A stretch of DNA of 25,834 nucleotides from a virus. Positions 2,655 to 21,157 of this stretch are shown piece after piece. The notes beneath the pieces are model-generated. The model saw only the letters and a program-made list of their open reading frames with translations. It made no database searches and was not told where the DNA came from. The stretch covers positions 1 to 25,834 of the IMG/VR virus record IMGVR_UViG_3300020473_000736; one strand, 5' to 3'. The position numbers and the translations under genes were made by a program. Every line of letters starts with the position of its first letter. The stretch's first letter is position 1.

Positions 2655-2657
2655 TAA

Positions 2658-5600: not shown

Positions 5601-8600
5601 AATTCCATTAATGATAATGGAGATGGACTATTTGCTGCTGTAGACCAAATTCAAGGTCAGGAAGTTGCATCTTTGTCCTGTAACACTCCTAAGAACCTTT
5701 ATCTTACTTGTAATGATAATGTATACCTAAACCATAATACTGTCCTTACACAGGATAATAGCGGTGCTACAGGAACGGTTATAGGTAAGATCGAAGAAGA
5801 TAATAAATTTGTAGTAAAAAATGTTACAGGAACGTTTAATAAAATTGATCCAGTTCAATCAACTACAGAAATTTACAATATAACCTTTGACGATACTGTT
5901 GTAGCAGATGTTGGATCTTTCATTGTTTATGCTGTTAATAGTGGTGGTGTATCACACGAAGCTGCTATTGGTAAGGTCTTACGTAACGTATTTGATAAAA
6001 ATACTGTTATTGTAGAATTGCAGAATGCTAACCCAGATTTAGAAACTACTGTTGTAGATGGTAATACTGTTACTATCCCTAGTACATCTTACAATAAACT
6101 TGGATTCTTTGCTGATGGTAATGGTTGTGCTATTGGTGAAGATTCAGCAACTATTGTAAATGTTAGAGCTCTATCTAAAAACTTTACATTACTTGATGTA
6201 GAAGATAATATTGCTGTTCTTAGAACTGCTAGTAAGAGACACGGTTTAGCAGTTGGTGATGATGTTATTGTTACCGTTCAACCTGACTCTAGTATTTCTA
6301 CACAGAAGTATTATGTAGAAACTAAGAAATATAATACAATTAAATTAAACCCACCCACAAAAGTCACTGATATCAATGGATCTGGGATAGCTAGATTAAC
6401 CTTGGTTAATGCTGGTAGTGGATTTACTCCATCAACTACTTTTGCTGGACTTACCCTTACCAATGCTTCTGGTACTGGTCAAAGTGCAACAGTTACCCTT
6501 ACCACAAATTCTGGTGGCCACGTAGAGTCATTTATTATAGCAAATAAAGGTGATGGGTATGGTTATGGAAATATCTTAACTATACAATCTAGTTTACTAG
6601 GTGGTAACGTTAATAGTCAGGAGTGTTCATTCTTTGTTGATGCTGCTGGTTGTGCCAAAGGTGATACTGTCATATTAACTACTAGTGCAGCTGGTTTTTC
6701 AGCAGGTGATATAGTTCAGATTACTGATGAGTTCTGTGAAATTGATAGTGTTTCAGGTAACGAAATAACTGTAGTACGTGGTGTCAATGGATCGGAAGCA
6801 GAAGATCATATAGAAGGTGTATCTGTAACATTAGTATCTAATGTTTATAGGTTTGAAAAAGATGCTAGTATATCCTTTGGTGGAAATACTGCATTTGTAG
6901 ATTCTTACAATTCTGAGACTCAAGACCTTACTGTTTATTATCAAAATGAAGGTGATACAGTAATTACTACATCATCTACATTTTTAGATGGTAGTACTCC
7001 TGCTAAACAGGTTTCTATAGCAAGTGCTCCAGATACTTCTTTGAAGTTTAGGTTTAGAAAGGATGGAGAGACAGAATGGAATAAAAATATTACATTAGAT
7101 ATTCAAAGAACATATCGTTACCTATTTGACACTAGTGATACCTCTTTACTCAATAGGAATCTTAAATTCTATGAGAATGTCTATAAAACTACAGATTTAA
7201 TACAGGCTTTTGAATCAGATACTAAACCAGGTGCTAACGGATCGTTTACTACATTCCAATTAGGATATGGTATACCTATAGATGGATCTACTTGGAATAG
7301 TACACCTGTACTAGATATTCCTCCTAAAATTTATTATGGAGAGGTATCTAATAAGATTGATAGTGAAGCACAGTTCTTTACTCTTGTAGAAGACCCATTT
7401 GCAGGTAAACACCCTGTATTTTATGGATATGAGATGGAGTTTGCTTATAGGCTTACTACTACTCCTCAAAATGAAGGATTTACAAATGTTCAATACTATA
7501 CAGACTCTCTATACGCTGTAGGAGCGATTAAGAGGGTTAAAGTCATTAGTGGTGGTAAAAACTACACAATGCCACCTTTAGTTCCTGGTGTCTTCTTAAA
7601 TAAGCGTTTTAGAGGTGCTTTTACTCCAAATATCATCGATGGTAGAATTGTATCAGTTACAGTCACTGATACTGGATTAAATTACTCAAAACCCATTGTT
7701 TTGCTTGAAAATATCGGAAATGGAGCAAATGCTAAGTTTAATGTTGAATTAAGACCAGATGGAAGTGTAGGACGTATTATTCCTACAGTTGAAGGTATTG
7801 ATTACCCCGATACAACTACTTTACGTCTTTATGAGTCTGATGTCAAGTTATTTGCTCACGGAGACGATATTGGTAAGTTGGCAACCCTAGAAATCATTTC
7901 TTCGGGTAAAGACTTCAATAACGATCCAACATTGACTCCACAAGTCAATCCACCCATTGTAATGACTCTAAACAATATGCCAGATAAGGCATTCTTGAAT
8001 GGAGAGCTAATTACGCAAAGAAACCTAGGTGGAGACGTAATTGCTTCTGGTAGAGTCGATTATTGGGTTGACGGTATTAATATTCTTCGTTTGAAGGGTA
8101 TTTACGGAAACTTCGATTCTAGGTATCAAATCTATGGTGAAACACTTCGTAGTTATGCAAGTATTCAAAAAATCTTTGTAGCAGACATTGTTCCCGAAAT
8201 TGGACCTACAAGTACTTCAGTTGGTTCATATTCAAGTGATAGAAGTAAATTAAGTGCAGTTTCTCAAAAAGTCCAAGATGGAGTCTATTATCAAGATTAT
8301 TCTTACGTAGTTAAGTCTACAGTCTCTATTAACGACTGGAGAGACTTTGTTAAGCGTTTTACCCATCCTGCTGGATTTAACCTCTTTGGAGAGGTCTTAA
8401 TTGAGTCTGAAGGTGATGGAACGCAACCAGAGACTATTGACACTCCACAATCGGGTATTAAGGATAATGGCTTTGGTGCTGTCCTTAGTATTCTAGAACC
8501 AGGCGTTTTGGGTGTTACTTGTTCTCATAAGTCGAGAAAGATTACTCAATCCCACGTTAGAGTCGATTCTATGTCGAAACAACGTGGTAAGGGAACTATT

Positions 8601-11600
8601 AACTATAGTGAACAAAATAACGTTGAAATTGAAGTATTTGACTTAGATCTATCACCAGAATTTGATGGTGCTATTCAGGCTGATGGTACAATCACTGGTA
8701 CGACTCAATTTACATTATTCAAGAAAGATATAAACGAAGTACTATCTCCATATAATGCAAGACAATTAATTGTTACTTTAGATGGTGTTTTACAGGATCC
8801 TGATACTGCTTATACAATTAGTGGATCAACAATAACATTTGCTTCACCTCCATTAGGACCATATATTGATACTCGTACTGGTATTGCTGTTCCTGGTGTG
8901 ACTTTCTATGGAAAGTCGATGAAATTCCAGGATGATACTAATAATGCTGAATGGATGCTAGAAGCGACTAATATTACTTCTCAGTTTGATGGTACTACTA
9001 AAGAATTTGATCTTGGTATTACTATTGCAGAAAATGATCATTTATACGTTTCTTTAGATGGTGTTATTCAGGAACCAGATGTAGCGTTTACATTAACACC
9101 AGGTGGTATTGGTACTAGTAAGATTACCTTTAGTGAAGCACCAAGACAAGTTGGTAAGATTGTAGAATTAGATATTGGTGATGCAACTAATTGGTTGGTA
9201 AATGACTTTGTTGTTGGCCAAACTTCTGGAGCAAGAGGTGAAATTGTTGCTAAGAGATATTTCCGAGGTAACAAGTACCTAGATGCTGCTAATATCATTA
9301 AAGATAATGCTTCTGTATTAGCAGAAGAATCAGTTGGTATATTAGATGATACTAGTAAATTTAAACCTGAATATTTCCAATATCCAGGTCTAGGAAGAAA
9401 TCAGTGTATTGTTGACCTTAAGTCTGTTCTTAGGGCAATGTCAGATGACCTTATACAAGGTGGTAACAGTAATACATTTGATGCTGCTAAAGAGTATCTA
9501 CTAGATCCTTCAGATCCTAATTCCGATATTAAGCATATTGAGGGAGAAGTAGAAGCAACTTTATGGGCTATGAAGTATCTTAAGGATATGACTATCCTTG
9601 CGGTACGTAATAAGTTTGGTATAGACAATCTATACGACTTCCAGAGAGCAGCAGCATCTGATTTTAAATTAACACCTTCTAATGCAGTATACACTCCTTC
9701 TAATGGTACATTTGTACTAACTATACCAAATCACGAGCTTACTACAGAAGATTACATAACCATTGCTGATAATGCACTAAAATTTAGTTGCACAATGGGA
9801 ACTGGGGATAAGACTTATCCAAGACAAGGTGATCCTGCTTACAGGTCAACTTTGGCCATTACAAATGTAACAGGTGATGATGTTACTGTTAATGTAGGTG
9901 CTACAACCAATATTACTCATACTCCTACTGCTGGTTCCTATGATCCTGCTACAGGTTTATTAGAACTAACTATTGGATCTCATAACCTTAAACCTAATAC
10001 TGCTGTTAAGATTGCTCCTAACTCACTATCATTCAGTTGTGAGATGGATGATCAGGCTACAGTCAAGACATATCCTAGAACAACCGATCCTTACTTCGAC
10101 ACTGCTGTTAATATCGTAAGTACTGGATCTACTTTCCATACTGCTACTGGTGCAATTTATAGTGGTACTACAGGTATTATGACTGTTACCGTTCCAGATC
10201 ACGGATTTGAGAATGGAGATAAAGTTAAAATTGCTGATGGTGGAATAACATTTAGTTGTACCTATGGTGCTGGAGTTCACAACTATGTTGGTGGTACTGC
10301 AACCAATGCTATAACTGTCACAGGTGGTTCTCAAATGAATGTCACCAATGCTCAGTATACTCCTAGCACTGGCGATTTAATATTGACTATTGGTGCTGGC
10401 CATAATCTTACACTTGTAGATACAATTACTATTGCTGCTGGATCATTAACTTTCCAATGTGATTTGGATAACTTTGGTTCTGATCACTCTTATCCACGTT
10501 CTACTGACCCTGTATACAACAAAGCAATTGGAATTAAAGCAGTAGGTAGCACAACTATTACAGTTGATGTTGGTGTAAGTTCTCCTGGTTCTGCATATCC
10601 ACGTTCTACTGATGCTATCAGTGGCAAGTTTATGCCAATTTCAAATGTAACTGATAACACATTTGATATATCAGTATTAGATACAATTCCTTCTACTAAC
10701 ACTGATGTACACACTTATGTAAGTTCAGTACCTAATGCTATTGAGTTAGAAAAGGGTAGGATTACACTTCAAGTTGGTTCTTCTCCTTTAGTAAGTCATA
10801 ACGTTAGTAATGCTCAATATGACCCTCAAACGGGTGATATGGTTTTAACTATTGGTACCCATAGTTTAAACACAAATGAAAGTATTAAGTTATTAGATAA
10901 TTCTATAAGATTTAGTTGTACAGAGGGTAGTGGAGAGTATTCATATCCTAGACCAGATACAATTCCATTAACTGCAACTACTGGCACCACATACAATCCA
11001 ACGACAGGTGTTATGAGTGTTACCACAACTGGTAACCACGGATTAGTAGATGGTGACTGGATTAAATTTGCTGATGGTTCATTATCACTTAGTTGTGATT
11101 ATGGTACTACAAACCACACATATGTTGGTGGAACTTCTATTGATGCTCTTTCTTCTGGTGGAACTAACTACAATGTCATTGGTGCAAATTATAATTCTGC
11201 TAATGGAGAGATGGTTCTTACAATTGGAACTCATTCTCTATCAACCAGTGATACTGTATTAATTGCTGCAAATGCTATAGCATTTACTTGTGATGCAGAT
11301 AATAATGCTACTACTCACACATATCCTCGTATTGGAGATCCTGCTTATAATACAGCAATTGATATTGATGCTGTAGATCAAGGTGCTGGTACTATTACAG
11401 TTAATGTTGGTGCTGCATCTGGTGGTCAGACAAAAACATATCCTAGAGAAACGGATTATCCACACGATAGATGGTTAAAGGTTTCTAATACTCAGGCTGA
11501 TACTACAGTATTTGAAGTTACTGTTTTAGATGCAATTCCTTCTACAAATACTAATACTCACGTATTTGTTTCAGCAGTTGCTGATGGTATTAGTAAGAAG

Positions 11601-14600
11601 AAAGATCCATTCCACGATACTGCAATTAATATCAAGGGCTCTGATCAAAGTGCTGGTACTATTACCATTAACGTATTGAATACAGCTCCTTCTACTAATG
11701 TAACACCACATACCTATCTCGGATCACTTCCTGGAGCAGTAATTAGTGGTGGAGGTTACACTCACAGATTCATTGGTGCTGCTAATGATGCTATTATTTC
11801 TGGTGGTGACTATACACATACATTCGTAGAATCAACACAAAATTCAATTGGTGTATATGCTGATCCTTATAATATTGATAATCCTGTAGCAAATACCTTT
11901 ATTGATGCTGCAAAACTAATATCAGATAACAAGACTTTCGTTGCTGAAGAAGCAGTAGCAAGAATGGCTACTGGTACATTACAAACTGTTAGTGATGCTA
12001 CTTACACACCAGTAACAGGTATTCTAGAATTGAATATTGGAGCTCATTCTTACACTACTGGTCAATTTGTTAGAATCCCAGACAATTCATTAATATTCAG
12101 TTGTACAATGGGTTCTGGTAATAAAACCTACCCACGTCCATCCGATCCTATTAGTGGTGAAACAGTTCAAATTAAATCTGTAGACCAGTCAGGTGGAACA
12201 TTTACTATTGATGTAGGTGCATCACCTATTGTAAATTATGATGTATCAAATGCTACATATGACCCTGCATTGGGTGATATGGTACTAACTATTGGTTCTC
12301 ATAATTTATCTACAGGTACAAGTATTAAACTTGCTACTGATTCATTAAAGTTTGAGTGTCCTGCTGCTGTTGGAACTCACATTTATAGCGGTGGTACAGT
12401 AACAAATGCAGTTACAATTGATGGTGTTCAAAAAGATATAACTGACGCTGATTATAATCCAGTAACAGGTTTATTAGAATTAACTGTTGGATCTACTACT
12501 GGATTAGCTGCTGCTACTTCACATCAAGCAGGATCGGGCACTACTTATAATCCAACTACAGGTATTATGACCTTGGAGGTTACTGGTCATACCTTCTCTA
12601 ATGGTGATCTAGTTTATCTTGATGATGGTGCAGTTACATTTAAATGTCAATATGGTGTAGGTTCAGCACATACGTGGGTTGGTGGAACATCAACTAATGC
12701 TATTACAATTACTGCTGGTAGTGTCCAGAAAGATGTAACATCTGCTACATATGATCCTAATACTGGTCTTTGTGTAATGACCATTGGAGCACATAGTTTT
12801 ACAACTAGCGACACAGTAACTATTGGTGCTGATAAGTTATCATTTACTTGTACTGCTGACGGTAACGTCAAGACTAAGACATATCCTCGTGCAACCGACC
12901 CTGCATATAATACTGCTATTGCAATTGATGCTGTAGATCCTTCTGGTGGTACTATTACTTGTAATGTTGGTGTTGTAAGTGGTAATGTAACAACTGCATA
13001 TCCTCGTGCTACTGATCCTATTAGTAATAAGTGGGTTGCAATTTCTAATGTTCAGACAGATACATTTGATATCCAAGTATTAGATACAATCCCTTCTACA
13101 AATACAGATGCACATACATTTGTAAGTAGTGCACCAGGTGCTATTAAGAGAGCATCAAATACTATAACTATTGGTGCTGGTAAGGTAACCTTTACTTGTG
13201 ATGCAGATAATCACGCTACTGATCATCCATATCCAAGAACAACTGACCCTGTATACAATACTCCAATTGGAATTATTGCTGTAACAGGAACTACAGTTTC
13301 TTGTAACGTTGGTATAGCATCAGCCACTAGTCAAAGTACATATCCAAGAGCAACTGGAGCAGCGACATCTAATGGTTCTGACTATGCTTACGATACCCCA
13401 TTAGAAATTACAGCAACCACTGGAACTACTATTACACTTAACGTTAATGGTGGTCAAGGTGCTATTAGTGTTAATTCTGCTCATACATTCGTTGAGGCTA
13501 CTGCTGGTGCAGTAATTAGTGGTGGTAATTATACTCATACATTCCAAGGATCATCTGCACCAATAGAAGTTGGTGTTGGTACTATAGCTGATCCATATTA
13601 TGATGATGCTGCTTATATCAAGTATGAAGGTACACCTCTTACTGCTACTAATGCTGCATATGCTCCTGATACTGGAATAGTAACTCTAACAGTACCTACT
13701 CTCCAATTTACACCATCAGATGCTGCATATAGTCCTGCATCTGGTGATATGCAAATAACTTTAGGTGCTGGCCATAATCTCACTACTTACGATAGTATTA
13801 AGATCGCTGCCAACTCATTATCATTCAGTTGCGAGTTTAATGGCGTAACTCAAACTAAGACATATCCAAGAGCAACAGGTGCTGCTACAACTAATGGTGC
13901 TGATTATGCTTATGATGTATTCTTACCAATACTTAAAGTAGATGATACTACTGTAACTGTTAATGTTAATGGTGGACAAGGTGTTATTAGTCATAATGTT
14001 CCTCATACATTCCAAGGTGCTGGTCCTTTGTGTATTACATCTCAAGGTCACGGTCTAGCATCTGGAGATAAGATTAAGATTGTAGATGGATCATTAACCT
14101 TTACTTGTGCTGAAGATGGTAACTTAACTAATCACGCATACCCTAGAGCAACAGATCCTATTAGTGATAAGTGGATACCTGTATCAAATGTTACACCTAA
14201 TACTTTTGATATACAATGTTTAGAGACTTTACCATCTACTAACGAGACTGTTCATACATTTGTTTCTGCTTTAGTAAATGGTATTATTAAGCAAGATGGT
14301 GTTATTGTAACAAATGTTGGTAAATCTTCAAATACAACTCCTCATCTATTCTCACCTCAGGTAGGTCAGACACCAACTAATGCAACTTATACCCCATCAA
14401 CGGGTATTATGGAAGTCACTATCACCAGTCACGGATTTGATAATGGAGATTATGTACAATTTGCTGATGGTGCTGTTATATTCCGTTGTGATGAAAATGG
14501 ACAGGCTGATGATCACGCATATCCTAGAGCGATAACTGATTCCTTTACTGCTGGTACTGGTACTTCATATGATGGTAGTACAGGTGTACTAACAGTAGAT

Positions 14601-17600
14601 GTTGGTGTTACACACAACTTATCTGATGGTGATTGGATTAGATTCAAAGATGGTGCACTTACATTTACTTGTACAGAAGACACGAATCAGACACAACACT
14701 CATATCCTAGGTACACGGATTACCCAAGTAATAAGTGGTTAGAAATTTCTAATGCTTCAGGACAAACATTTGATGTTACTGTATTAGATATTATTCCTTC
14801 TACTAACACCACAGCACATAGTTTCGTAGCAAATCAGGCTATGACTGATGGTATCGAGCACAAGAAAGATCCTGCATCTGGTTCTTGGTTGAAGATACTG
14901 AATAAGACAAGTGATACCTTCCAAGTACAAGTTAATACTACAGTACCTTCAAGTAACGTTACTACTCACGTATATCAAGGTTCATTACCAAATAGTGTTA
15001 AGAGAGCAGTAATTCTGACAGGTGGTGATTATCAGCATACATTTGATAGAGCATTAACTAATTCAATTACTGCTAATACAGGTGCTAAGTTTACTCCAAC
15101 TAATGCAACATTTGCACCTGACACTGGTATTCTTGTTCTTACAATTGGGTCTGGACATAGTTTAACTACTTCTAATACCATCACAATAGATCCTAATGCT
15201 ATTGTAATGAGATGTGAGATGGATGCAAATGAGACTCCTCATTCTTATCCTAGACCTACTGATCCTGCATATGGTAGAACATTAAGTCTACAATCAGTAG
15301 ACGATGGTGCTGGTACAATTACATTATTTGTAGGTAAATCACTTCCATTAGCATATGAACCAACTGTAGGTAGATATGATCCTATTACAGGTGATTTGAT
15401 AATGGATATTGGAGAGCATAGATTGTCTAGAGGAACTGGATTTAAGTTCTTCCGTGATGCTCTTTCATTGACTTGTTCAATGGACAATCACGAAACTGTC
15501 CATACCTATCCTCGTGCTTCTTCACACGATGCACTTGGCGATTGTGTTGACGACGTTAAAGATATTCTTAAGGCTATTGTATGGAACCTTAAGTATGGTG
15601 GTAATAACAGGGTATGGGATGCTGCTGATCTATTCATTGATAGAAGGGGATATTTAGAGCATATCCAACACCAAATACCAGAAGTCTTAAATGTAATGGG
15701 ACATTTGAAGACTATCCTTGCAAACGTAATACGTAGTAATGATGTTAATGTAGTTGGATCTCACGGTTTAATACAAGTTAAAGATCCTTCTATTACTAAG
15801 GAATCTAATGAATGTGCTGCTGTAGAATCTGCTGTTAATACATTTGTTACTTTAATCGAAGATGCAGTACAAACTCCAAATACATTCGAGTCTAATGTAG
15901 CAAGAACTATCCCAGAAAGATGGCCTATTGTTCATAGTTCATTAACTGCTAATAGAGATCTTACTATTACTGTTGATTCACTTCCTCAGTGTGCTCAAGT
16001 TGAATCCGCTATTAATACGTTGTTTAGTATAGTTACTACAACTATTCAGGAGACTGCTTATAATAACACTAACTATTTGATGACGATAACTCAGGACTTC
16101 CCTAATCCCAATAAGATTCAGGTAGAAATGTCCGAGAAGGAATTTATTGCTGGTGAAGATGTTCAAAGTGAAGCTACTTTAACTACTGTTACTGCTACTA
16201 GTACTGATGTTATTGCTCCAGGTATTCAACAGAAATTCTTTGGATATAAGCACGGTAAGTACTACAAGTTAGATTCTATTGAACCTCAGTTTAATAGTGC
16301 TCAAACTATATTTGAATTAGAACGTAGTGGTGTTCCTTTCTATGCAGAAAGAAATCAGAATATTGTAATTGTATTGAACGGTGTTATTCAGCAAAATAAA
16401 GTAGCGTATAGGATAGAAGATAACTATGTAATCTTCAACGAACCTCCTTCAACAGGATCTGCTTGCTTTATTCTGTACTACTTTGGTTTAGATCCAGAAC
16501 GTATTCTCTTAGGATATAATATTGAGCCACCTGGCACATTTAAGAAGTTCTTTAAGTTAACTTTGGATACACAAGTTATTATTCCTGTTGAAGGTGCTGA
16601 TTGTTGGGTATCAACTGATGCTAATTCTGATACGCATACCTATGAGTATTCGTATGCTAGAGGTAGAATTTATAAGCAGAACTGGGAACCTGGTTCTAGA
16701 AACCTTGTATTCGTCGAAGGTGTTACAGCACAGAAAGTTAACTGGGAAGGTGGTACTATAAGCATCACAAGAGATAGAGGAGCTAGTGCTTCTTTACTTG
16801 ATGCTAATGTTACAGCAGTAGAAGAACTAGTTAACGTTGATCTTAGAGAAAGATTATTTAATAGACAAGATAGATTAGAATCTAATTTGAAACCAGGAGA
16901 TCTTATTCAGATTGACGGTGAGGCAGATACACGTTCAATCATACGTGCTGCTAGAGAAGCACTTGTAACCTCTGGTTATGACAGTGATACTACCGTTGGA
17001 TCGTTCTTCAGATCTTATGAATATGAAGTTGTAGTTAACGTTGGTCCTTATTCTGGACAGATTGAAGGTGATGGTGGACAAGCTGTTGCTCGTATTGACG
17101 CAGAATTGAGATACCATACACTTGTTTCTAGTAGACAATTAAATCAAGAATATCTACCAGGTGATATTCTAGTTCAGTATGCTGATCAAAATAATACTAG
17201 TTCTGCTATAGTATGGCAGGCTACAGTCAAGAACTACGTTCCTGCTAGAAAGACTATAGAATTGTATAGTAACTACCTAGATGGTAATCCTTACACTGAT
17301 CCAGTAGAGGCTAATTTCCGTCCAGGCGAAAAAGTTTATATTGATGGTACTGTTGGTACTGAATCTATTGGTCTTCAATACCTAAAACCAGGTGGTGTTA
17401 ATAGTCTTGTTGTTTCTAAGAGAGATAATAGTACTTACTTCACCAATCAGTTTAACTGGAGAAATGATAACGTATTGAATAAAGGTGAAGATCGTCTTGG
17501 TGGAGCATTTGTACCTGCTAATGCAAGTGCTAACAACATATCACAAGAATATGGTTTTACTTCATCAATATACTCAGATGATTTAGAAGATCAAATTTCC

Positions 17601-19292
17601 AAGAATTATCGTGAACCACCAGTACTAGTTTTCCGTAGTGCTTCCTTACTTGATGAAAATGGTGTTGCTATTGGATCACCTACAGGTGGTGGTGCACGTG
17701 CAAATGCTATCGTCACTAGAGGTGAAGTAACTGATATTGAAATTATTTCATCAGGATCAGGATATAAAGTACCACCTCAAGTTTTATTCACTAGAGGATA
17801 TTTCGTTATTCGTAAGGATCCTATTAATATTAAGAACCTTACTACTTTCGGTATTAACAGACAGATAGATCTTCGTTGTGGTCTTAGATCATATATTGAC
17901 ACTATCTTTAAAGGTGGTTCTGCTCCTCAATGGAGATCGATGTTACCTCTTGGTACCACATTGGTATTTGGTAATGCTGGTAGTCCTTCGTATATGATTA
18001 ATAGGACTTCTGATCCTAGAGTTATCATTAGAAAGATTCTTCCTCTGAGTGATATTACCACAAAACCTCAACCACAAATTCTATTTGAATTAGGACCAGA
18101 AGATCTTAAGTGTCAGCATAGAGGAACTAAAGTTACACAAACTCAGTGTACTGGTGGTGTACAAGGTATCTCAGTTGCTTTATCGAAATATAAGAAGACA
18201 GAAACTAAGCTTAGTGCTCAGTCAGGTTGTATTGAGAGACAAGCTGGTAATTTAGGTGATTCATTGATTGGTAAGGATACATTCAGTCCTGGACTTCTTG
18301 GTCCTCATCTACAGTATCTACAAGACTTTAAGTTTGAAATTCAACCTCAAAGTAGCACTAATAACACTGGTTCTTATGTAGATGGTAAAGGAAATACTAT
18401 TAACTACGTTATGGGTGATATGACTATTGGATTCTTCTCTGATTACTATCCTACCCTTGCCGTTGGTGATTTTGAAAATCCTGAAATTGCTGGTTCTAAA
18501 GTTGTAGCTCCTGGTGATACCAATGACTTCAACTTTATGCAAGGATCAAAAATACATTTTGGTACAACTTTGAAGTATTCTGCTTTGGATAATCCAAATG
18601 GTACAGATACATTACTTGTTACATCTACTGCTGGATTCCCTGCTAGTGGAGGTAGTTTAATTATTGGAAGTGCCAGTGATCAAGATAAGAGAGAGAAGAT
18701 TACGTATACACAAGCATTTGCCGATCGTTTTGTTGGGTGTACACGTGTCAATCCAATAGGTGTAGTCGAAAAAGGATTTAGTGCTTATGATTTCGGTACT
18801 ACCAATGTAGGGGCATCAGTCGTTGCAGGTGGTACAGGCACAGGCACAGGAGGTTTTGCTTCCAACATAAATTATCTCTTATTCTCAGGTGCAGGTGGAG
18901 CTAGATCCGCAACATTTGCTCCTACTGACTTGACTACATACAATACGGTAACATTTAGTGCGATTCGTGGTAACGGTAGCAATGGTGGTAATGCACCTTC
19001 TGCTGGAATACACGATTTGAACGTGAGTTACAGTATTGATGGTGGAACTACATTCTATGATATTGGGTCAGTTGCAATCTATTCAGACACTACGTTTGAT
19101 AATTGGCATACAATTACTCAAAATATCCCATCGAATGCTCAAACTGCCTCAACAATACTCCGTATCTATATGGCTGACTCCACGAATATGACATCAGAAC
19201 AGTATGGTGTCCGTTTAATGTGGTTCGATGATGCCAATACTGACTCCTATGTCGCAGGTGACTATATAATCACCGCAGATTTAGATCTATAA
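2658..19292 (+). CDS. 7: Giant modular gp7-like baseplate wedge protein, 5544 aa
   Basis: A single uninterrupted frame of 5544 codons (roughly 0.6 MDa) lies between gp6 and gp8, where T4-like phages carry gp7, the baseplate wedge initiator (1032 aa in T4). The N-terminus, with PDFIVEDYPLVTNFLSKYYE near residues 15-34, resembles marine-phage virion proteins at this position. Modules in order: GFP/YTS beta modules (about 76-124 and 315-365), a GxGYT-rich region (577-735), a YHYH domain (797-816), more GxGYT modules (1241-1316, 1624-1728), two LDGV modules (about 2013-2163), a helical module (2207-2338), the YPR repeat array (2339-4290), half a helical module (4296-4362), paired CAxVESAxNT helices (about 4386 and 4445), a third LDGV module, a fourth GxGYT module (about 5005), a third GFP module (5313-5368) and a C-terminal beta-sandwich-like domain (5378-5544). 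There is no signal peptide or obvious transmembrane segment. It presumably starts wedge assembly through its N-terminus and projects the rest outward. The gp7 name rests on synteny and the YHYH domain; I see no clear alignment to T4 gp7. It could also be a fibre fused to a gp7 equivalent. Confidence 0.8.
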   Translation: MAGPSLAALIESQLPDFIVEDYPLVTNFLSKYYEALSISEGPQDVINNFEKYLDVDTFSPEILVKTASLELEITLGTDNIDITVDNTDGFPNSNGMIMIDQEIFLYTSKTQTQFKNCIRGYSAKTELGDLYNDIKFVNSAAAVHKQYAVVNNLSNLLLAALIKNYEEQYTSGFPYPYLRDQTNKNLLVKRIKDFYNVKGTPQSLEFIFQMLFSVKPDIIYPKENVYKASESGWNNKELLVVEAISGDIRKVVGNPVVQTPDPYNPELTAANAIIDNIVGEPYQGSLQYTLTISPGSKEGEFAIARRTFLMNELSSNAGPGDRIDVFSTIGFPERDGRVIIGVEEITYSNKTATQFIIKERDAVNSQNKQEYTHKKLVRAFTKNNLVGHWNENGVSGEVHLRIYGLVSGLKSKGIEPEASAGLEYDETADNYFDVSSGGIPYVNFNNMVEFRSSGFSDDLPLSNEWIINENFSKLSGSDPSNVGTNNIKDKLLSDVSAIYRDAENYYIASSGFPSYAIGPFDNIETPQDQEYLKILPRKPIEASSKNITTSKEVGVLVNGVPILNHKSERGLDYGALEKITITDPGRNYSVPPTVNIEGDATATAEINGLGEITAVNVTNPGTGYTSAPAVTFTSGSGGQFTVLIQQGEIANIYLSVNAQAQIIDAGSDYTEAPDVFIYDASGKGGGAFFTCQIDATTGKITGFTKQSGGFDYVDSSTTVTLVPKSRMASATAVLTRWQYNRYLEMSVDNGNASGIVEDSNDPNYGYAYGHIIAPSSLKVQRVDNVDGQGNPLSNKSHSPILGWAYDGNPIYGSFGYENAYQDVTAANPTVKRMGSSWKLKTSRISDAPSITTYSLGRFTNDYEFEERLGDLDANNGRFCTTPEFPNGVYAYFMTTDDTEAPTFPYTIGESFYNVPIEENWKPKSRQAFLPDGVRRRTVSANDKTGELLTSRVSGIEYGPITNVEVHQSSYNFTNEDVLYIDNSINDNGDGLFAAVDQIQGQEVASLSCNTPKNLYLTCNDNVYLNHNTVLTQDNSGATGTVIGKIEEDNKFVVKNVTGTFNKIDPVQSTTEIYNITFDDTVVADVGSFIVYAVNSGGVSHEAAIGKVLRNVFDKNTVIVELQNANPDLETTVVDGNTVTIPSTSYNKLGFFADGNGCAIGEDSATIVNVRALSKNFTLLDVEDNIAVLRTASKRHGLAVGDDVIVTVQPDSSISTQKYYVETKKYNTIKLNPPTKVTDINGSGIARLTLVNAGSGFTPSTTFAGLTLTNASGTGQSATVTLTTNSGGHVESFIIANKGDGYGYGNILTIQSSLLGGNVNSQECSFFVDAAGCAKGDTVILTTSAAGFSAGDIVQITDEFCEIDSVSGNEITVVRGVNGSEAEDHIEGVSVTLVSNVYRFEKDASISFGGNTAFVDSYNSETQDLTVYYQNEGDTVITTSSTFLDGSTPAKQVSIASAPDTSLKFRFRKDGETEWNKNITLDIQRTYRYLFDTSDTSLLNRNLKFYENVYKTTDLIQAFESDTKPGANGSFTTFQLGYGIPIDGSTWNSTPVLDIPPKIYYGEVSNKIDSEAQFFTLVEDPFAGKHPVFYGYEMEFAYRLTTTPQNEGFTNVQYYTDSLYAVGAIKRVKVISGGKNYTMPPLVPGVFLNKRFRGAFTPNIIDGRIVSVTVTDTGLNYSKPIVLLENIGNGANAKFNVELRPDGSVGRIIPTVEGIDYPDTTTLRLYESDVKLFAHGDDIGKLATLEIISSGKDFNNDPTLTPQVNPPIVMTLNNMPDKAFLNGELITQRNLGGDVIASGRVDYWVDGINILRLKGIYGNFDSRYQIYGETLRSYASIQKIFVADIVPEIGPTSTSVGSYSSDRSKLSAVSQKVQDGVYYQDYSYVVKSTVSINDWRDFVKRFTHPAGFNLFGEVLIESEGDGTQPETIDTPQSGIKDNGFGAVLSILEPGVLGVTCSHKSRKITQSHVRVDSMSKQRGKGTINYSEQNNVEIEVFDLDLSPEFDGAIQADGTITGTTQFTLFKKDINEVLSPYNARQLIVTLDGVLQDPDTAYTISGSTITFASPPLGPYIDTRTGIAVPGVTFYGKSMKFQDDTNNAEWMLEATNITSQFDGTTKEFDLGITIAENDHLYVSLDGVIQEPDVAFTLTPGGIGTSKITFSEAPRQVGKIVELDIGDATNWLVNDFVVGQTSGARGEIVAKRYFRGNKYLDAANIIKDNASVLAEESVGILDDTSKFKPEYFQYPGLGRNQCIVDLKSVLRAMSDDLIQGGNSNTFDAAKEYLLDPSDPNSDIKHIEGEVEATLWAMKYLKDMTILAVRNKFGIDNLYDFQRAAASDFKLTPSNAVYTPSNGTFVLTIPNHELTTEDYITIADNALKFSCTMGTGDKTYPRQGDPAYRSTLAITNVTGDDVTVNVGATTNITHTPTAGSYDPATGLLELTIGSHNLKPNTAVKIAPNSLSFSCEMDDQATVKTYPRTTDPYFDTAVNIVSTGSTFHTATGAIYSGTTGIMTVTVPDHGFENGDKVKIADGGITFSCTYGAGVHNYVGGTATNAITVTGGSQMNVTNAQYTPSTGDLILTIGAGHNLTLVDTITIAAGSLTFQCDLDNFGSDHSYPRSTDPVYNKAIGIKAVGSTTITVDVGVSSPGSAYPRSTDAISGKFMPISNVTDNTFDISVLDTIPSTNTDVHTYVSSVPNAIELEKGRITLQVGSSPLVSHNVSNAQYDPQTGDMVLTIGTHSLNTNESIKLLDNSIRFSCTEGSGEYSYPRPDTIPLTATTGTTYNPTTGVMSVTTTGNHGLVDGDWIKFADGSLSLSCDYGTTNHTYVGGTSIDALSSGGTNYNVIGANYNSANGEMVLTIGTHSLSTSDTVLIAANAIAFTCDADNNATTHTYPRIGDPAYNTAIDIDAVDQGAGTITVNVGAASGGQTKTYPRETDYPHDRWLKVSNTQADTTVFEVTVLDAIPSTNTNTHVFVSAVADGISKKKDPFHDTAINIKGSDQSAGTITINVLNTAPSTNVTPHTYLGSLPGAVISGGGYTHRFIGAANDAIISGGDYTHTFVESTQNSIGVYADPYNIDNPVANTFIDAAKLISDNKTFVAEEAVARMATGTLQTVSDATYTPVTGILELNIGAHSYTTGQFVRIPDNSLIFSCTMGSGNKTYPRPSDPISGETVQIKSVDQSGGTFTIDVGASPIVNYDVSNATYDPALGDMVLTIGSHNLSTGTSIKLATDSLKFECPAAVGTHIYSGGTVTNAVTIDGVQKDITDADYNPVTGLLELTVGSTTGLAAATSHQAGSGTTYNPTTGIMTLEVTGHTFSNGDLVYLDDGAVTFKCQYGVGSAHTWVGGTSTNAITITAGSVQKDVTSATYDPNTGLCVMTIGAHSFTTSDTVTIGADKLSFTCTADGNVKTKTYPRATDPAYNTAIAIDAVDPSGGTITCNVGVVSGNVTTAYPRATDPISNKWVAISNVQTDTFDIQVLDTIPSTNTDAHTFVSSAPGAIKRASNTITIGAGKVTFTCDADNHATDHPYPRTTDPVYNTPIGIIAVTGTTVSCNVGIASATSQSTYPRATGAATSNGSDYAYDTPLEITATTGTTITLNVNGGQGAISVNSAHTFVEATAGAVISGGNYTHTFQGSSAPIEVGVGTIADPYYDDAAYIKYEGTPLTATNAAYAPDTGIVTLTVPTLQFTPSDAAYSPASGDMQITLGAGHNLTTYDSIKIAANSLSFSCEFNGVTQTKTYPRATGAATTNGADYAYDVFLPILKVDDTTVTVNVNGGQGVISHNVPHTFQGAGPLCITSQGHGLASGDKIKIVDGSLTFTCAEDGNLTNHAYPRATDPISDKWIPVSNVTPNTFDIQCLETLPSTNETVHTFVSALVNGIIKQDGVIVTNVGKSSNTTPHLFSPQVGQTPTNATYTPSTGIMEVTITSHGFDNGDYVQFADGAVIFRCDENGQADDHAYPRAITDSFTAGTGTSYDGSTGVLTVDVGVTHNLSDGDWIRFKDGALTFTCTEDTNQTQHSYPRYTDYPSNKWLEISNASGQTFDVTVLDIIPSTNTTAHSFVANQAMTDGIEHKKDPASGSWLKILNKTSDTFQVQVNTTVPSSNVTTHVYQGSLPNSVKRAVILTGGDYQHTFDRALTNSITANTGAKFTPTNATFAPDTGILVLTIGSGHSLTTSNTITIDPNAIVMRCEMDANETPHSYPRPTDPAYGRTLSLQSVDDGAGTITLFVGKSLPLAYEPTVGRYDPITGDLIMDIGEHRLSRGTGFKFFRDALSLTCSMDNHETVHTYPRASSHDALGDCVDDVKDILKAIVWNLKYGGNNRVWDAADLFIDRRGYLEHIQHQIPEVLNVMGHLKTILANVIRSNDVNVVGSHGLIQVKDPSITKESNECAAVESAVNTFVTLIEDAVQTPNTFESNVARTIPERWPIVHSSLTANRDLTITVDSLPQCAQVESAINTLFSIVTTTIQETAYNNTNYLMTITQDFPNPNKIQVEMSEKEFIAGEDVQSEATLTTVTATSTDVIAPGIQQKFFGYKHGKYYKLDSIEPQFNSAQTIFELERSGVPFYAERNQNIVIVLNGVIQQNKVAYRIEDNYVIFNEPPSTGSACFILYYFGLDPERILLGYNIEPPGTFKKFFKLTLDTQVIIPVEGADCWVSTDANSDTHTYEYSYARGRIYKQNWEPGSRNLVFVEGVTAQKVNWEGGTISITRDRGASASLLDANVTAVEELVNVDLRERLFNRQDRLESNLKPGDLIQIDGEADTRSIIRAAREALVTSGYDSDTTVGSFFRSYEYEVVVNVGPYSGQIEGDGGQAVARIDAELRYHTLVSSRQLNQEYLPGDILVQYADQNNTSSAIVWQATVKNYVPARKTIELYSNYLDGNPYTDPVEANFRPGEKVYIDGTVGTESIGLQYLKPGGVNSLVVSKRDNSTYFTNQFNWRNDNVLNKGEDRLGGAFVPANASANNISQEYGFTSSIYSDDLEDQISKNYREPPVLVFRSASLLDENGVAIGSPTGGGARANAIVTRGEVTDIEIISSGSGYKVPPQVLFTRGYFVIRKDPINIKNLTTFGINRQIDLRCGLRSYIDTIFKGGSAPQWRSMLPLGTTLVFGNAGSPSYMINRTSDPRVIIRKILPLSDITTKPQPQILFELGPEDLKCQHRGTKVTQTQCTGGVQGISVALSKYKKTETKLSAQSGCIERQAGNLGDSLIGKDTFSPGLLGPHLQYLQDFKFEIQPQSSTNNTGSYVDGKGNTINYVMGDMTIGFFSDYYPTLAVGDFENPEIAGSKVVAPGDTNDFNFMQGSKIHFGTTLKYSALDNPNGTDTLLVTSTAGFPASGGSLIIGSASDQDKREKITYTQAFADRFVGCTRVNPIGVVEKGFSAYDFGTTNVGASVVAGGTGTGTGGFASNINYLLFSGAGGARSATFAPTDLTTYNTVTFSAIRGNGSNGGNAPSAGIHDLNVSYSIDGGTTFYDIGSVAIYSDTTFDNWHTITQNIPSNAQTASTILRIYMADSTNMTSEQYGVRLMWFDDANTDSYVAGDYIITADLDL
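2883..3029 (+). repeat. GFP/YT beta module, copy 1 (coding)
   Basis: This encodes the pattern TDGFPNSNGMIMIDQEIFLY followed by TSKTQTQFKNCIRG. The same pattern, a GFP turn, G.(I/V)(I/M)I, a glutamate, YT/YS, then TQF and a charged end, recurs at 3600-3750 and near the C-terminus at 18594-18760. It is a short beta module used three times in this protein. It is common in marine-phage virion proteins, and its function is unknown to me. Confidence 0.65.
3600..3750 (+). repeat. GFP/YT beta module, copy 2 (coding)
   Basis: This encodes IGFPERDGRVIIGVEEITYS followed by NKTATQF. It lines up with copy 1 over the GFP turn, the VIIG strand and the Y(S/T).KT.TQF end. The similarity is clear in protein but low in DNA, so the duplication is old. 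Confidence 0.6.
4386..4862 (+). repeat. GxGYT-type beta repeats within the gp7-like gene, block 1
   Basis: The block holds tandem beta units with the pattern (I/V)T(D/N)PG.(N/G)Y(S/T)..P.V....G.GA.(A/F)......G.I. Seen copies include ITDPGRNYSVPPTVNIEGDA, VTNPGTGYTSAPAVTF and IDAGSDYTEAPDVFIYDASG, with a degenerate SGGFDY copy at the end. Similar units recur at about 6380-6604, 7527-7840 and 17670-17810 in this gene, and also in the gp8 gene downstream. They look like structural spacer or decoration domains. Confidence 0.7.
5046..5105 (+). other. YHYH-domain core motif within the gp7-like gene
   Basis: Residues 797-816 read HSPILGWAYDGNPIYG followed by SFGY. This is the characteristic HSPI.GWAYDG.PIYG.(Y/F)GY core of the YHYH domain family. 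Marine T4-like phage proteins at the gp7 position often carry this domain, and it also occurs in unrelated secreted bacterial proteins. Its biochemical role is not established. Here it is the best single marker linking this giant protein to marine phage gp7. Confidence 0.85.
6380..6604 (+). repeat. GxGYT-type beta repeats, block 2 (coding)
   Basis: The encoded units VNAGSGFTPSTTFAGLTL and ANKGDGYGYGNILTI follow the same (V/I).(N/A).G(S/D)G(F/Y)....... plan as block 1, with a linking segment GTGQSATVTLTTNSGGHV. They flank a run rich in Thr and Ser. This is a second use of the module in the same protein. Confidence 0.55.
7527..7840 (+). repeat. GxGYT-type beta repeats, block 3 (coding)
   Basis: Three units are visible: VISGGKNYTMPPLVPGV, VTDTGLNYSKPIVLLENIG and PTVEGIDYPDTTTLRLYES. 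They are separated by DGRIVSVTV and DGSVGRIIPTV strands, the same strand that follows the glycine-aromatic turn in block 1. The regular alternation suggests a row of small beta domains. Confidence 0.6.
8694..8856 (+). repeat. LDGV beta module, copy 1 (coding)
   Basis: This encodes TTQFTLF, then LIVTLDGVLQDPDTAYTISG and STITFASPPL. The plan is a TQF-type strand, a (L/I)(I/Y)V.L(D/N)GV(L/I)Q(D/E/Q)...A(Y/F) core, then a (I/V).F..(P/A)P end. Copy 2 follows at 8970-9147, and a third copy lies beyond the repeat array at about 16290-16488. The module is shared among marine phage virion proteins. Confidence 0.6.
8970..9147 (+). repeat. LDGV beta module, copy 2 (coding)
   Basis: This encodes TSQFDGTTKEFDLG, then LYVSLDGVIQEPDVAFTLTP and KITFSEAPR. 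It is tandem with copy 1 and shares the LDGV(L/I)Q(D/E)PD.A(Y/F)T core. It is followed directly by a GQTSGARGEI turn and the helical module. Confidence 0.6.
9276..9671 (+). repeat. Helical DAA/AEEAV-GGN module, complete copy (coding)
   Basis: Residues about 2207-2338 form a predicted helical module in an otherwise beta-rich protein. The N half reads DAANIIKDNASVLAEESVG. The C half begins at NQCIVDLKSVLRAMSDDLIQ and continues GGNSNTFDAAKEYL, with HIEGEVEATLWAMKYLKDM after it. It runs straight into the first array unit (TPSNAVYTPS). An N-half fragment recurs at 11862-11975 inside the array and a C-half fragment at 15543-15743 just after it. This type of module occurs in other marine phage structural proteins, and its function is unknown. 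Confidence 0.65.
10135..10746 (+). repeat. Higher-order super-unit, copy 1
   Basis: About 610 bases encode, in order: a TG..Y...TGIM unit ending in YVGG, an A.Y.P.TGD unit ending in SYPRSTDPVYN, a short half-unit ending in AYPRSTDAISGKF, an ISNV strand and DTIPSTNTDVHTYVSS. The same order and nearly the same length recur at 10970-11595 and 12523-13149. This copy has the GAGHNL form of the LTIG.H motif and lacks the DAVD.(G/S)(A/G)GTIT segment of the other two. Confidence 0.6.
10970..11595 (+). repeat. Higher-order super-unit, copy 2
   Basis: The block order matches copy 1: GTTYNPTTGVM, HTYVGGTS, MVLTIGTHSLSTSDTV, TYPRIGDPAYN, IDAVDQGAGTITVNVG, TYPRETDYPHDRWLKVSN and DAIPSTNTNTHVFVS. It resembles copy 3 more than copy 1, with GTTYNPTTG(V/I)M, TIG.HS.(S/T)TSDTV and DPAYNTAI.IDAVD in common. 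It is preceded by a VSNAQYDPQTGDMVLTIG unit, as copy 3 is preceded by a similar unit. Confidence 0.65.
11862..11975 (+). repeat. Orphan N-half of the helical module inside the array
   Basis: The encoded segment reads DPYNIDNPVANTFIDAAKL followed by ISDNKTFVAEEAVARM. It matches the N half of the complete module (DAANIIKDNASVLAEES) at 9276, but the expected C half with Cys and GGN does not follow. The next residues are an array unit (SDATYTPVTGILELNIG). The matching C half appears only after the array, at 15543. A shorter possible remnant, DPYYDDAAYIK, lies near 13590. Confidence 0.6.
12523..13149 (+). repeat. Higher-order super-unit, copy 3
   Basis: About 627 bases encode GTTYNPTTGIM, HTWVGGTSTNAI, CVMTIGAHSFTTSDTV, TYPRATDPAYN, IDAVDPSGGTITCNVG, AYPRATDPISNKWVAISNV and DTIPSTNTDAHTFVSS, the same order as the other two copies. 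The YPR-to-YPR spacing of 117 bases (12882 to 12999) equals that in copy 2 (11322 to 11439). A truncated unit (ADYNPVTGLLELTVGSTTG) immediately precedes this copy. Confidence 0.65.
15543..15743 (+). repeat. Orphan C-half of the helical module after the array
   Basis: Residues 4296-4362 read CVDDVKDILKAIVWNLKYGG, then NNRVWDAADLFIDRRGYLEH and further helical sequence. This matches the C half of the complete module (CIVDLKSVLRAMSDDLIQGG, NSNTFDAAKEYL) at 9400-9655. It is joined directly to the last, partial array unit (YPRASSHDALGD), with no N half before it. Confidence 0.65.
15813..16110 (+). repeat. Paired CAxVESAxNT helical segments (coding)
   Basis: Two similar helical stretches follow the C-half helical module: CAAVESAVNTFVTLIEDAVQ starting at 15813 and CAQVESAINTLFSIVTTTIQ starting at 15990. 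Both begin with Cys, keep VESA(V/I)NT and end in an amphipathic run to (V/I)Q. This is a local duplication of about 59 residues. In related marine phage proteins such segments commonly follow the GGN helices, so the complete module upstream of the array may have lost its tail to the array. Confidence 0.55.
16290..16488 (+). repeat. LDGV beta module, copy 3 (coding)
   Basis: This encodes AQTIFELERSGVPFY, then IVIVLNGVIQQNKVAYRIED and YVIFNEPPS, ending FILYYFG. The L(D/N)GVIQ...A(Y/F) core and (V/I).F.(E/S).P end match copies 1 and 2 at 8694-9147. One pair lies before the array and one copy after it. Confidence 0.6.
17670..17810 (+). repeat. GxGYT-type beta unit, block 4 (coding)
   Basis: This encodes TGGGARANAIVTRGEVTDIE followed by IISSGSGYKVPPQVLFTRG. 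It keeps the G.GA.A.A.(V)..G.(I/V)T.I.I...GSGY..PP.V plan of the earlier blocks and is the clearest single consensus copy in the C-terminal third of the protein. Confidence 0.65.
18594..18760 (+). repeat. GFP/YT beta module, copy 3 (coding)
   Basis: This encodes TDTLLVTSTAGFPASGGSLI, then IGSASDQDKREKITYTQ and FVGCTRV. It repeats the GFP turn, (L/V)IIG strand, ITYT strand and aromatic-plus-Arg end of the two N-terminal copies. It immediately precedes the C-terminal beta domain. Confidence 0.6.
18790..19289 (+). other. C-terminal beta-sandwich-like domain of the gp7-like protein
   Basis: Residues about 5378-5544 contain a Gly-rich lead (GGTGTGTGGF) and a GARSATF strand. These are followed by TVTFSAIRGNGSNGGNAP, LNVSYSIDGGTTFYDIG and a series of alternating strands ending YGVRLMWF. 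The N-G-G-x-x-P and L.V.YS.DGGT.(F/W) features recur in terminal domains of marine phage structural proteins and resemble jelly-roll or carbohydrate-binding folds. A peripheral, possibly host- or glycan-contacting role is inference. Confidence 0.5.
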
Positions 19293-19339: not shown

Positions 19340-21157
19340 ATGTCTGCTATTATCACTGATCTGTTCAGGATACATAATGCCCAACAGTTCGTCGAGGCAT
19401 TATCTGAACCCACAACCTCTACTCCTGCTGAAGAAGCAGCAGCTGAGGCAGGTACACAACGTACACGACTCTACTTCTTTATTGGTAGACCACAAGAATG
19501 GAAAGCATATCTTGAACTTTATGCAATTAACAACACCTTTCAAGTAGGTGAGGTTGTATATCAAGGTACTTCATATCCTGGTGGTGCTTCAGTATATGGA
19601 ACTGTAGAAAAAGTATTTCCAAATTCTGTCCTACTATCTGGTGTAAATGGTACACTAGGTCAGAACTCTAATTTCGTTGCTGGTACTACTGTCACTGGTA
19701 ATTCAAGTGGTGCTACTGGTAAAGCTGGTGTGTGGAGGACTGGATCCGAGAACGTTCCTACATCACCTTTTGACTCTCAAGAAGAGAAGTTCGAGATCTA
19801 TGATGATATGATCTCTCTTAAAAGGGTTAAGAAAGACGATTTAACATTCGTGGTTAAGCGTTATAACTTCGGTGCTAACACAGTGTACGATATGTACAAG
19901 CCCGATTATTCTAGTGCTAAGACTGCTGCTACTGGTGCCACCTCATTATTTGCTTCCACATTCTATGTGATGAACAGCAACTATGAGGTCTTTAAGTGTT
20001 TATATAACGGTCAAACTCCTACAGATCCTAACGGTGTAGTATCAGTTACAGAACCTACTAAGGTTCAGTCTATCTCTGGTATCTTTATCGAACCAGAAGA
20101 TGCTGGTAACCCAGGATTCAGAACTGATGGTAAGCGTCCATATGTATGGAAGTATATGTATACTATCCCTACTGACAGTGTATTGAAGTTCTTGTCAACT
20201 GACTTCCTTCCAATTATTGAAGAAACTGCTGTTACTTCTGCTGCTGTTAACGGTGCTATAGATACTATTCTTATTACCGATGCAGGTTCTAACTATGATG
20301 CTGGTACATACTACACTCCAATTAAGGGTGATGGTTCTGCTGGAATCGCTAAACTTGTAGTTGATTCTGGTTCTATTGTCGAGGCAAGTCTACAGGCTGC
20401 TGGTACTGGATACACATATGCATCTATCAACTTTGGAGATGTTTATAGTGATAGTGGATTAACAACTGGATCTGATATTGACGCTAACAGTGACGCAACT
20501 GGTGGTGCTGTAGAAGTTATCATTCCTCCTCAAGGTGGACACGGTGCTGACCCTGTAGAAGAATTGGGTGGTAAAAGAGTTATGGTCAACACTCGTTTGA
20601 CCTATGATGAAGGAGAAGGTGACTTCCCAACAGATAATGACTTCCGTCGTATTGGTCTACTTCGTGACCCATACAACTTCGGTACTACAGACTTTGCAAC
20701 TGCTGATAACCTAAGTGCAACTCCTGCATTGAAGGTTCAGAGTCCTTCTGGTGATTTCTTCGTTGATGAAGAGATTTCACAGACATATACTTCTGGTGGT
20801 TCATCTGTAACTGCTAAGGGTACAGTTGTTTCTTGGAAGGGAACTGTTGATGGTGTAACATACAACATCCTTAAATACTTCCAGTCTCCTGATCGTCATA
20901 CACATAATGGCGTTGTTTACCCATTTACCAACACAGCTGATGTTGTTTCTGGTGCAGGATCACTTTCTACTGCTACGGTAAATAGTTCATATAATACACC
21001 TGGTGGACAGACAGATGGCGGTGTAGTTTTCGCAAGCGGTGCTTCTAATGCAGAGATTGCGAAAAACTCAGGCGATATCATTTACATTGAGAACCGTCGT
21101 GCTATCTCTCGTGCTTCTGACCAGATTGAAGATATCAAGCTCGTAGTCGAGTTCTAA
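19340..21157 (+). CDS. 8: Baseplate wedge subunit gp8, enlarged (605 aa)
   Basis: The ends match T4 gp8. YFFIGRPQEW at residues 45-54 corresponds to T4 gp8's FITFGRSEPW. RPYVWKYMYTIPTDS corresponds to its GYVWEYLFEIPPD. The C-terminal GDIIYIENRRAISRASDQIE corresponds to GEMIYMENRPPIIMAMDQTE. gp8 is a wedge protein that joins gp7, gp6 and gp10 in the T4 baseplate. T4 gp8 has 334 residues, so about 270 extra residues are present. One insertion near residues 59-130 contains a VGEVVYQG.....A.GTV and GNSSGATGKAG pattern. Another, near 310-365, contains two GxNY/GxGYT units (ITDAGSNYDAGTYYTPI, LQAAGTGYTYASINFGD) of the kind found in the giant gene. The start is the first ATG after the tandem late promoter, with only a weak purine run (TAGAAAA) before it. 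The TAA is 17 bases before the next ATG. Confidence 0.92.
   Translation: MSAIITDLFRIHNAQQFVEALSEPTTSTPAEEAAAEAGTQRTRLYFFIGRPQEWKAYLELYAINNTFQVGEVVYQGTSYPGGASVYGTVEKVFPNSVLLSGVNGTLGQNSNFVAGTTVTGNSSGATGKAGVWRTGSENVPTSPFDSQEEKFEIYDDMISLKRVKKDDLTFVVKRYNFGANTVYDMYKPDYSSAKTAATGATSLFASTFYVMNSNYEVFKCLYNGQTPTDPNGVVSVTEPTKVQSISGIFIEPEDAGNPGFRTDGKRPYVWKYMYTIPTDSVLKFLSTDFLPIIEETAVTSAAVNGAIDTILITDAGSNYDAGTYYTPIKGDGSAGIAKLVVDSGSIVEASLQAAGTGYTYASINFGDVYSDSGLTTGSDIDANSDATGGAVEVIIPPQGGHGADPVEELGGKRVMVNTRLTYDEGEGDFPTDNDFRRIGLLRDPYNFGTTDFATADNLSATPALKVQSPSGDFFVDEEISQTYTSGGSSVTAKGTVVSWKGTVDGVTYNILKYFQSPDRHTHNGVVYPFTNTADVVSGAGSLSTATVNSSYNTPGGQTDGGVVFASGASNAEIAKNSGDIIYIENRRAISRASDQIEDIKLVVEF

Follow-up and report, generated by a model that had tools for sequence, protein, structure and literature searches.

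A 25,834-nucleotide stretch of the IMG/VR virus record IMGVR_UViG_3300020473_000736 (positions 1 to 25,834; hereafter the window) encodes a giant open reading frame (ORF) that occupies the place, or slot, which gp7 has in T4-like cyanophages (gp25-gp6-X-gp8) and contains a long array of repeated units marked by a single cysteine and a YPR motif. Our analysis indicates that this array is probably a string of FCCH/SH3-like barrels which lengthens a gp7-type wedge protein into spacer arms extending from the baseplate, with the cysteine stabilizing the core of each barrel. The cysteine is the most conserved residue of the unit. The helical domains that bracket the array are, with high confidence from sequence comparison, homologous to phycobiliproteins. 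The relevant features, with residue numbers referring to the giant ORF and bit scores to a hidden Markov model (HMM) of the helical domain family, are:

2658-19292, + strand: giant ORF of 5544 amino acids occupying the slot of gp7, the baseplate wedge initiator, as assigned from synteny and from PHROG and Pfam wedge matches
9270-9536, + strand: intact phycobiliprotein-like helical domain 1, directly before the array (residues 2205-2293; 69 bits)
9663-11882, + strand: block 1 of the YPR array, with seven Cys units (residues 2378, 2461, 2534, 2601, 2754, 2813 and 2878) and YPR-only units
11892-11987, + strand: first half of phycobiliprotein-like domain 2 (residues 3079-3110; 21.7 bits, profile positions 1-32)
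11988-15497, + strand: block 2 of the YPR array, with 11 Cys units (residues 3149-4273), within the split helical domain
15498-15665, + strand: second half of phycobiliprotein-like domain 2, with the C..D motif (residues 4281-4336; 49.5 bits, profile positions 33-85)

An interrupted array of cysteine- and YPR-bearing units

The original prediction, made from the letters of the DNA, had described positions 9672-15527 as an array of about 1950 residues with one regularly spaced cysteine per unit, and had thought of a phage fibre. These positions correspond to 1952 residues of the giant ORF (2339-4290), and their repetition goes far beyond chance, a single 153-residue piece recovering 16 further copies within the ORF down to E=1.4e-35. 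The predicted 18 YPR motifs and 18 single-cysteine strands (canonical form [LF]xC) were both counted exactly, and the predicted 22 units are reached as 14 with both cysteine and YPR, four in which the cysteine is followed by H.(Y/W).GG, and four with YPR and no canonical cysteine; the two sets of 18 do not belong to the same units. The region has 23 cysteines in total, five of them outside the canonical strand. The spacing, however, is anything but regular, successive unit cysteines lying 59-271 residues apart. Nor is the array continuous, since half of a helical domain breaks it at residues 3079-3110 and the other half follows it at 4281-4336, with 11 of the 18 Cys units sitting between the two halves. 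Rather than an isolated fibre, the array is one part of a giant gp7-slot protein.

A near-invariant cysteine in a small predicted barrel

With its column masked in the profile, the cysteine is kept in 940 of 941 nonredundant units, the lone exception being an edge alignment (these counts carry two biases: units of related phages are not independent, and loci were fetched by peptide patterns, some including the cysteine, although each array adds many units not so chosen). A Cys-free profile of the first 38 residues returned 813 nonredundant hits, 802 with the cysteine and 794 with it at the identical offset; the 11 without it are mostly truncated barrels entering the next unit, or different barrels. 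Thus, the expectation that the cysteine would be conserved in homologous arrays is borne out. By column, conservation reaches 99.9% for C43, 98% for D59 and 96.5% for H24. The cysteine codons across units are both TGT (725) and TGC (112); therefore, the constraint acts on the residue.

Structure prediction folds the repeats consistently as small beta-barrels. Two segments concern this fold (pLDDT, predicted local distance difference test; pTM, predicted template modelling score):

10332-10592, + strand: single unit modelled by AlphaFold2 with 64 aligned sequences, cysteine at residue 2601; pLDDT 92.0, pTM 0.80, six strands
14577-14648, + strand: best sub-threshold E1 FCCH match in the array (PF16190; the array as a whole scores 26.4 bits at E=7.5e-6, short of the 29.5 bits required)

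A model of the first four Cys units, from an alignment of 49 related stretches, also predicts repeated barrels (pLDDT 87.6, pTM 0.45), whose placement relative to each other is uncertain. The nearest relatives of the predicted barrel, weakly, are the E1-FCCH and endosialidase barrels: PF16190 matches five of 64 single units (best E=0.011) and the endosialidase beta-barrel family PF12195 matches six (best 2.6e-4). In Foldseek, the single-unit model reached template modelling (TM) scores of 0.48-0.49 to the FCCH regions of UBA1 and UBA6, 0.51 to a phage head-tail protein and 0.37 to the isolated FCCH structure 2v31, and no PDB structure matched at E<=0.001. Whole-chain superpositions of the four-unit model on PDB structures were poor (root-mean-square deviation mostly ~20 Å or more), hence the choice of the single-unit model for this comparison. 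We call the unit FCCH-like and claim no membership in E1 FCCH. Two other candidates arose: TAL effectors (PDB profile search, E ~1e-10), rejected because the score adds up many 1-bit matches to the short stretch 'aHglt', and iota-carbonic anhydrase (6e-4), set aside as no single stretch passed.

Phycobiliprotein-like domains around the array

Evidence for the affinity of the bracketing helical domains comes from searches in both directions. A profile of 20 such domains, compared with the PDB, retrieved phycobiliproteins with single-stretch matches in which the bilin-attaching cysteine is aligned (best 7.5e-6, to a phycocyanin), and all 60 hits listed are phycobiliproteins or related bilin proteins. 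The Pfam family PF00502 matches 10 of the 20 members, at best with 2.3e-4; its match to domain 1 of the window lies below the cut-off (E=0.0067), and an HMM of host phycobiliproteins matches residues 2202-2271. In reverse, a host profile of 53 phycobiliprotein sequences, from genomes related to a Prochlorococcus genome, gave 36 domain hits in phage proteins, all inside the domain family, which makes up 4% of the residues searched, and nothing below E=2 in a reversed-sequence control. Finally, HHalign aligned the phage domain family with phycobiliproteins over 106 columns (probability 96%, E=4.3e-9; 0.1% for the reversed control). Searches of phage records with three divergent members of the family found matches only in cyanophage and 'Marine' virus records.

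The interruption of such a domain by array units recurs. A scan for split copies found 23 pairs of first and second halves, 17 of them with array units in between (up to 28 in one protein), several of these pairs coming from overlapping or closely related loci, so that the independent cases are fewer than 23 and 17. The barrel arrays may have been inserted into one loop of a phycobiliprotein-type globin, which T4-like cyanophages would have taken from the light-harvesting lineage of their hosts and turned into a repeated block of giant baseplate and fibre proteins; the homology that this scenario requires is well supported.

CxRD is a motif of bilin-binding globins (PMC10151467). Among 203 nonredundant phage domains, C..D is present in 179 and the full CxRD in 69, the copies in the window reading CIVD and CVDD. 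Binding of bilin by these domains is speculative and, we judge, improbable. It is likewise doubtful that the domains carry a bilin made and attached by phage enzymes (heme oxygenase, PebS/PcyA, CpeT), with the virion itself as the acceptor. In S-WAM2, a gene for a CpeT-like chromophore lyase (L116 4488-5012) lies ~1.3 kb upstream of that for a tail protein with several phycobiliprotein-like domains.

Relatives in cyanophages and location of one homologue in the virion

In the collection scans, single proteins served as queries, the array alignment being too variable for pattern scans. A tblastn search with the array matched 320 of 50,697 phage records, all of them Synechococcus, Prochlorococcus, cyanophage or 'Marine virus' single-cell records, with the best hits among isolates being ~27-38% identical over the array. 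The cyanophage P-SSM2 has the gene order gp25-gp6-gp7-gp8, and its 5,195-residue gp7 (PSSM2_111), annotated as baseplate wedge initiator, carries YPR/Cys units; the matching proteins of P-SSM4, P-RSM6 and S-P4 have, by annotated coordinates, ~7,300, ~8,570 and ~7,040 residues. The protein in the gp7 slot of S-SM1, SSM1_102, has two units and is T4-GC969, which is reported among the proteins that mass spectrometry detected in purified virions of this phage (PMC3037559). This homologue can hence be placed in the phage particle. In S-WAM2 and P-HM1, tail-fibre-like genes carry the array as well.

Array length differs even in close relatives of the giant ORF: one that is 95-96% identical (L012) lacks 215 residues, and another (L013) lacks 533. 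The IMG/VR contig 3300020467_000043 (L010) encodes the same ORF with a single difference, at residue 3300, over the 5,357 residues compared. A relative of the array unit is also encoded on a contig of a Rhodobacteraceae metagenome-assembled genome (L114), possibly a misbinned phage contig.

A probable core role for the cysteine and proposed spacer arms

The strand with the cysteine alternates in hydrophobicity, L39, F41 and C43 being hydrophobic and positions 40, 42 and 44 polar and variable. The cysteine thus shares the phase of the Leu and Phe, which face inward; it should point to the same side as the core, and we infer its burial from this. The original prediction had offered a buried core residue as one option, and this fits best; it had also suggested disulfide or metal links along a stack, which fare worse. 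In a disulfide ladder, bonds would form once the virion is in oxic seawater and would join the unit cysteines of adjacent barrels or of separate array copies within the six-fold baseplate. It would make use of one near-invariant cysteine per unit, and disulfide networks in phage tails are known, for example in Agrobacterium phage Milano (PMC10811340). However, the irregular distances between unit cysteines and their phase with core residues both count against it. Among the 753 assessable units, 17 have no other cysteine of any kind within 150 residues, and the 14 proper units among them (three being spurious matches), with no other cysteine within 150-344 residues, still keep their own, as do S-RIM2 and ACG-2014a, with one unit each. 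Thus, a ladder along one chain is not the general cause of the conservation, and we regard the ladder as improbable overall; this argument applies to links within one chain and does not extend to links between chains. Less probable still is a metal site in each barrel, formed by C43, a conserved histidine (that of LTIG.H or that before YPR) and an aspartate. The high conservation of H24, D59 and C43 would suit such a site, but the histidine before YPR, with which the original prediction had paired the cysteine, is a lysine in 26% of units, which disfavours a shared Cys-His site there, and H24, that of LTIG.H, belongs to the HG..GD.V motif shared with FCCH barrels and is replaced in some units that keep the cysteine. 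Taken together, the evidence favours a per-domain core role for the cysteine over a disulfide ladder.

We accordingly picture small FCCH/SH3-like beta-barrels in series, by which T4-like cyanophages would extend their giant baseplate wedge protein of the gp7 type. Each barrel is predicted to fold autonomously, with the single cysteine closing strand 4 and pointing into the core next to the conserved Leu and Phe, where it would most likely stabilize the barrel rather than link one unit to another. The helical domains would be nodes and the barrel strings spacer arms: block 1 would simply follow the intact phycobiliprotein-like domain, whereas block 2 would exit and re-enter the second such domain, and, having both its ends there, is expected to run as a very long loop with no free end. 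It is likely that these arms protrude from the periphery of the baseplate or brace it, and they may hold surfaces that contact the host. Their length would change through the loss or gain of whole segments, and the variation in array length between close relatives is as expected of spacer arms or of adhesin arrays.

Such an adhesin array, in which each barrel would be a weak carbohydrate-binding site and the string would act through many weak contacts with host glycans, strikes us as unlikely, if the most serious of the competing explanations. Some units are weakly similar to the endosialidase beta-barrel and a carbohydrate-binding family, the surface candidates of YPR..D are strongly conserved, and the giant ORF also has Reelin-type and YHYH domains; yet the family matches are weak and confined to a few scattered units, and GG variants replace YPR in some units. 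Spacer arms remain our preferred account, and several observations weigh against it. As the array is also present in tail-fibre-like proteins, its role may extend beyond the baseplate. The unit has no PDB fold match at E<=0.001 in Foldseek and no credible one by sequence. The original prediction could not name the fold; a small beta-barrel with weak E1-FCCH and endosialidase affinities is now predicted. Further, an ordinary core position would normally accept Val, Ala or Ser, and the retention of the cysteine in all but one of the 941 units thus suggests a more specific role than burial as such.

Gene neighbourhood and other domains of the giant ORF

The assignment of the giant ORF to the gp7 slot follows from its position in the window, where the order is gp25-gp6-giant ORF-gp8, then a DUF4815 protein. 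Its similarities to known families comprise strong matches to PHROG 2885 and 708 ('baseplate wedge'), PHROG 'virion structural protein' matches and a Pfam wedge match below the cut-off. Its N-terminal region also has a weak match to the phage tail domain TIGR02242. The remaining features are:

441-839, + strand: baseplate wedge gp25 (PF04965, 2.7e-15; PHROG 261)
840-2654, + strand: baseplate wedge gp6 (PF21379, 1.9e-18; PHROG 219)
2685-3332, + strand: N-terminal region of the giant ORF, with a match to the phage baseplate wedge family PF23786 of Pfam (E=5.7e-5; 23.1 bits, short of the curated cut-off of 27)
4965-5348, + strand: YHYH domain in the giant ORF (PF14240, E=7.7e-28)
18861-19208, + strand: Reelin subrepeat-B-like domain at the C-terminus of the giant ORF (PF21471, E=1.3e-11, 44.8 bits, above the cut-off)
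19340-21157, + strand: baseplate wedge gp8 (PF09215, 4.3e-12; PHROG 438)

Upstream of gp25, a 95-residue ORF (129-416) matches the end of the SET domain (PF00856, 7.4e-11) and PHROG 28741, of unknown function. The DUF4815 protein (4.6e-45) is encoded by the ORF at 21175-25833, which runs past the end of the window and matches PHROG 358, also of unknown function.

Significance and comparison with known systems

Giant proteins of the gp7 slot rank with the largest that abundant ocean viruses encode, and the records examined annotate them only as structural, hypothetical or baseplate proteins. Here, we define in them a recurrent barrel unit with a near-invariant cysteine, for which the evidence points to an autonomous domain and not a cross-linked stack, and identify the helical domain around the array as phycobiliprotein-like. 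In the literature covered (titles and abstracts, with subscription journals mostly outside the coverage), we found no description of the YPR unit or of a phycobiliprotein-like domain in a virion protein; this is a known kind of protein with an undescribed domain make-up. Were the domains to bind bilin, the genes with which some cyanophages make and attach bilin would have an acceptor in them; if they bind none, a host light-harvesting fold would still have been put to unusual use in building the virion.

The closest counterparts are the giant gp7-slot proteins of P-SSM2, P-SSM4, P-RSM6, S-P4 and S-SM1, which have the gene slot, the giant size (5,195 to ~8,570 residues) and the YPR/Cys units in common with the window ORF and differ from it in unit number and order; in the records examined, the annotation of none of them mentions this repeat or domain. 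With gp7 of T4, a protein of ~1,030 residues, the window ORF has in common its place in the order gp25-gp6-gp7-gp8 and, weakly, an N-terminal match to the wedge family, and no PDB sequence match of the giant ORF to T4 gp7 was found; relative to T4 gp7, the arrays are an addition. The array unit resembles the E1 FCCH and endosialidase beta-barrels (PF16190, PF12195) in its predicted small barrel, the HG..GD.V motif and weak profile matches, with TM scores of ~0.5 to FCCH. In contrast to these, it has an extra SLxFxC...YPR.TDP hairpin that holds the near-invariant cysteine, and its E1_FCCH match is below the cut-off. Similarly, the phage helical domain aligns with phycobiliproteins (PF00502; phycocyanin, phycoerythrin) and bilin-binding globins over ~106 columns, including the bilin-attaching cysteine and the aspartate, but unlike them it is part of a giant virion protein, is interrupted where arrays have been inserted, and retains the full CxRD in only 69 of 203 cases.

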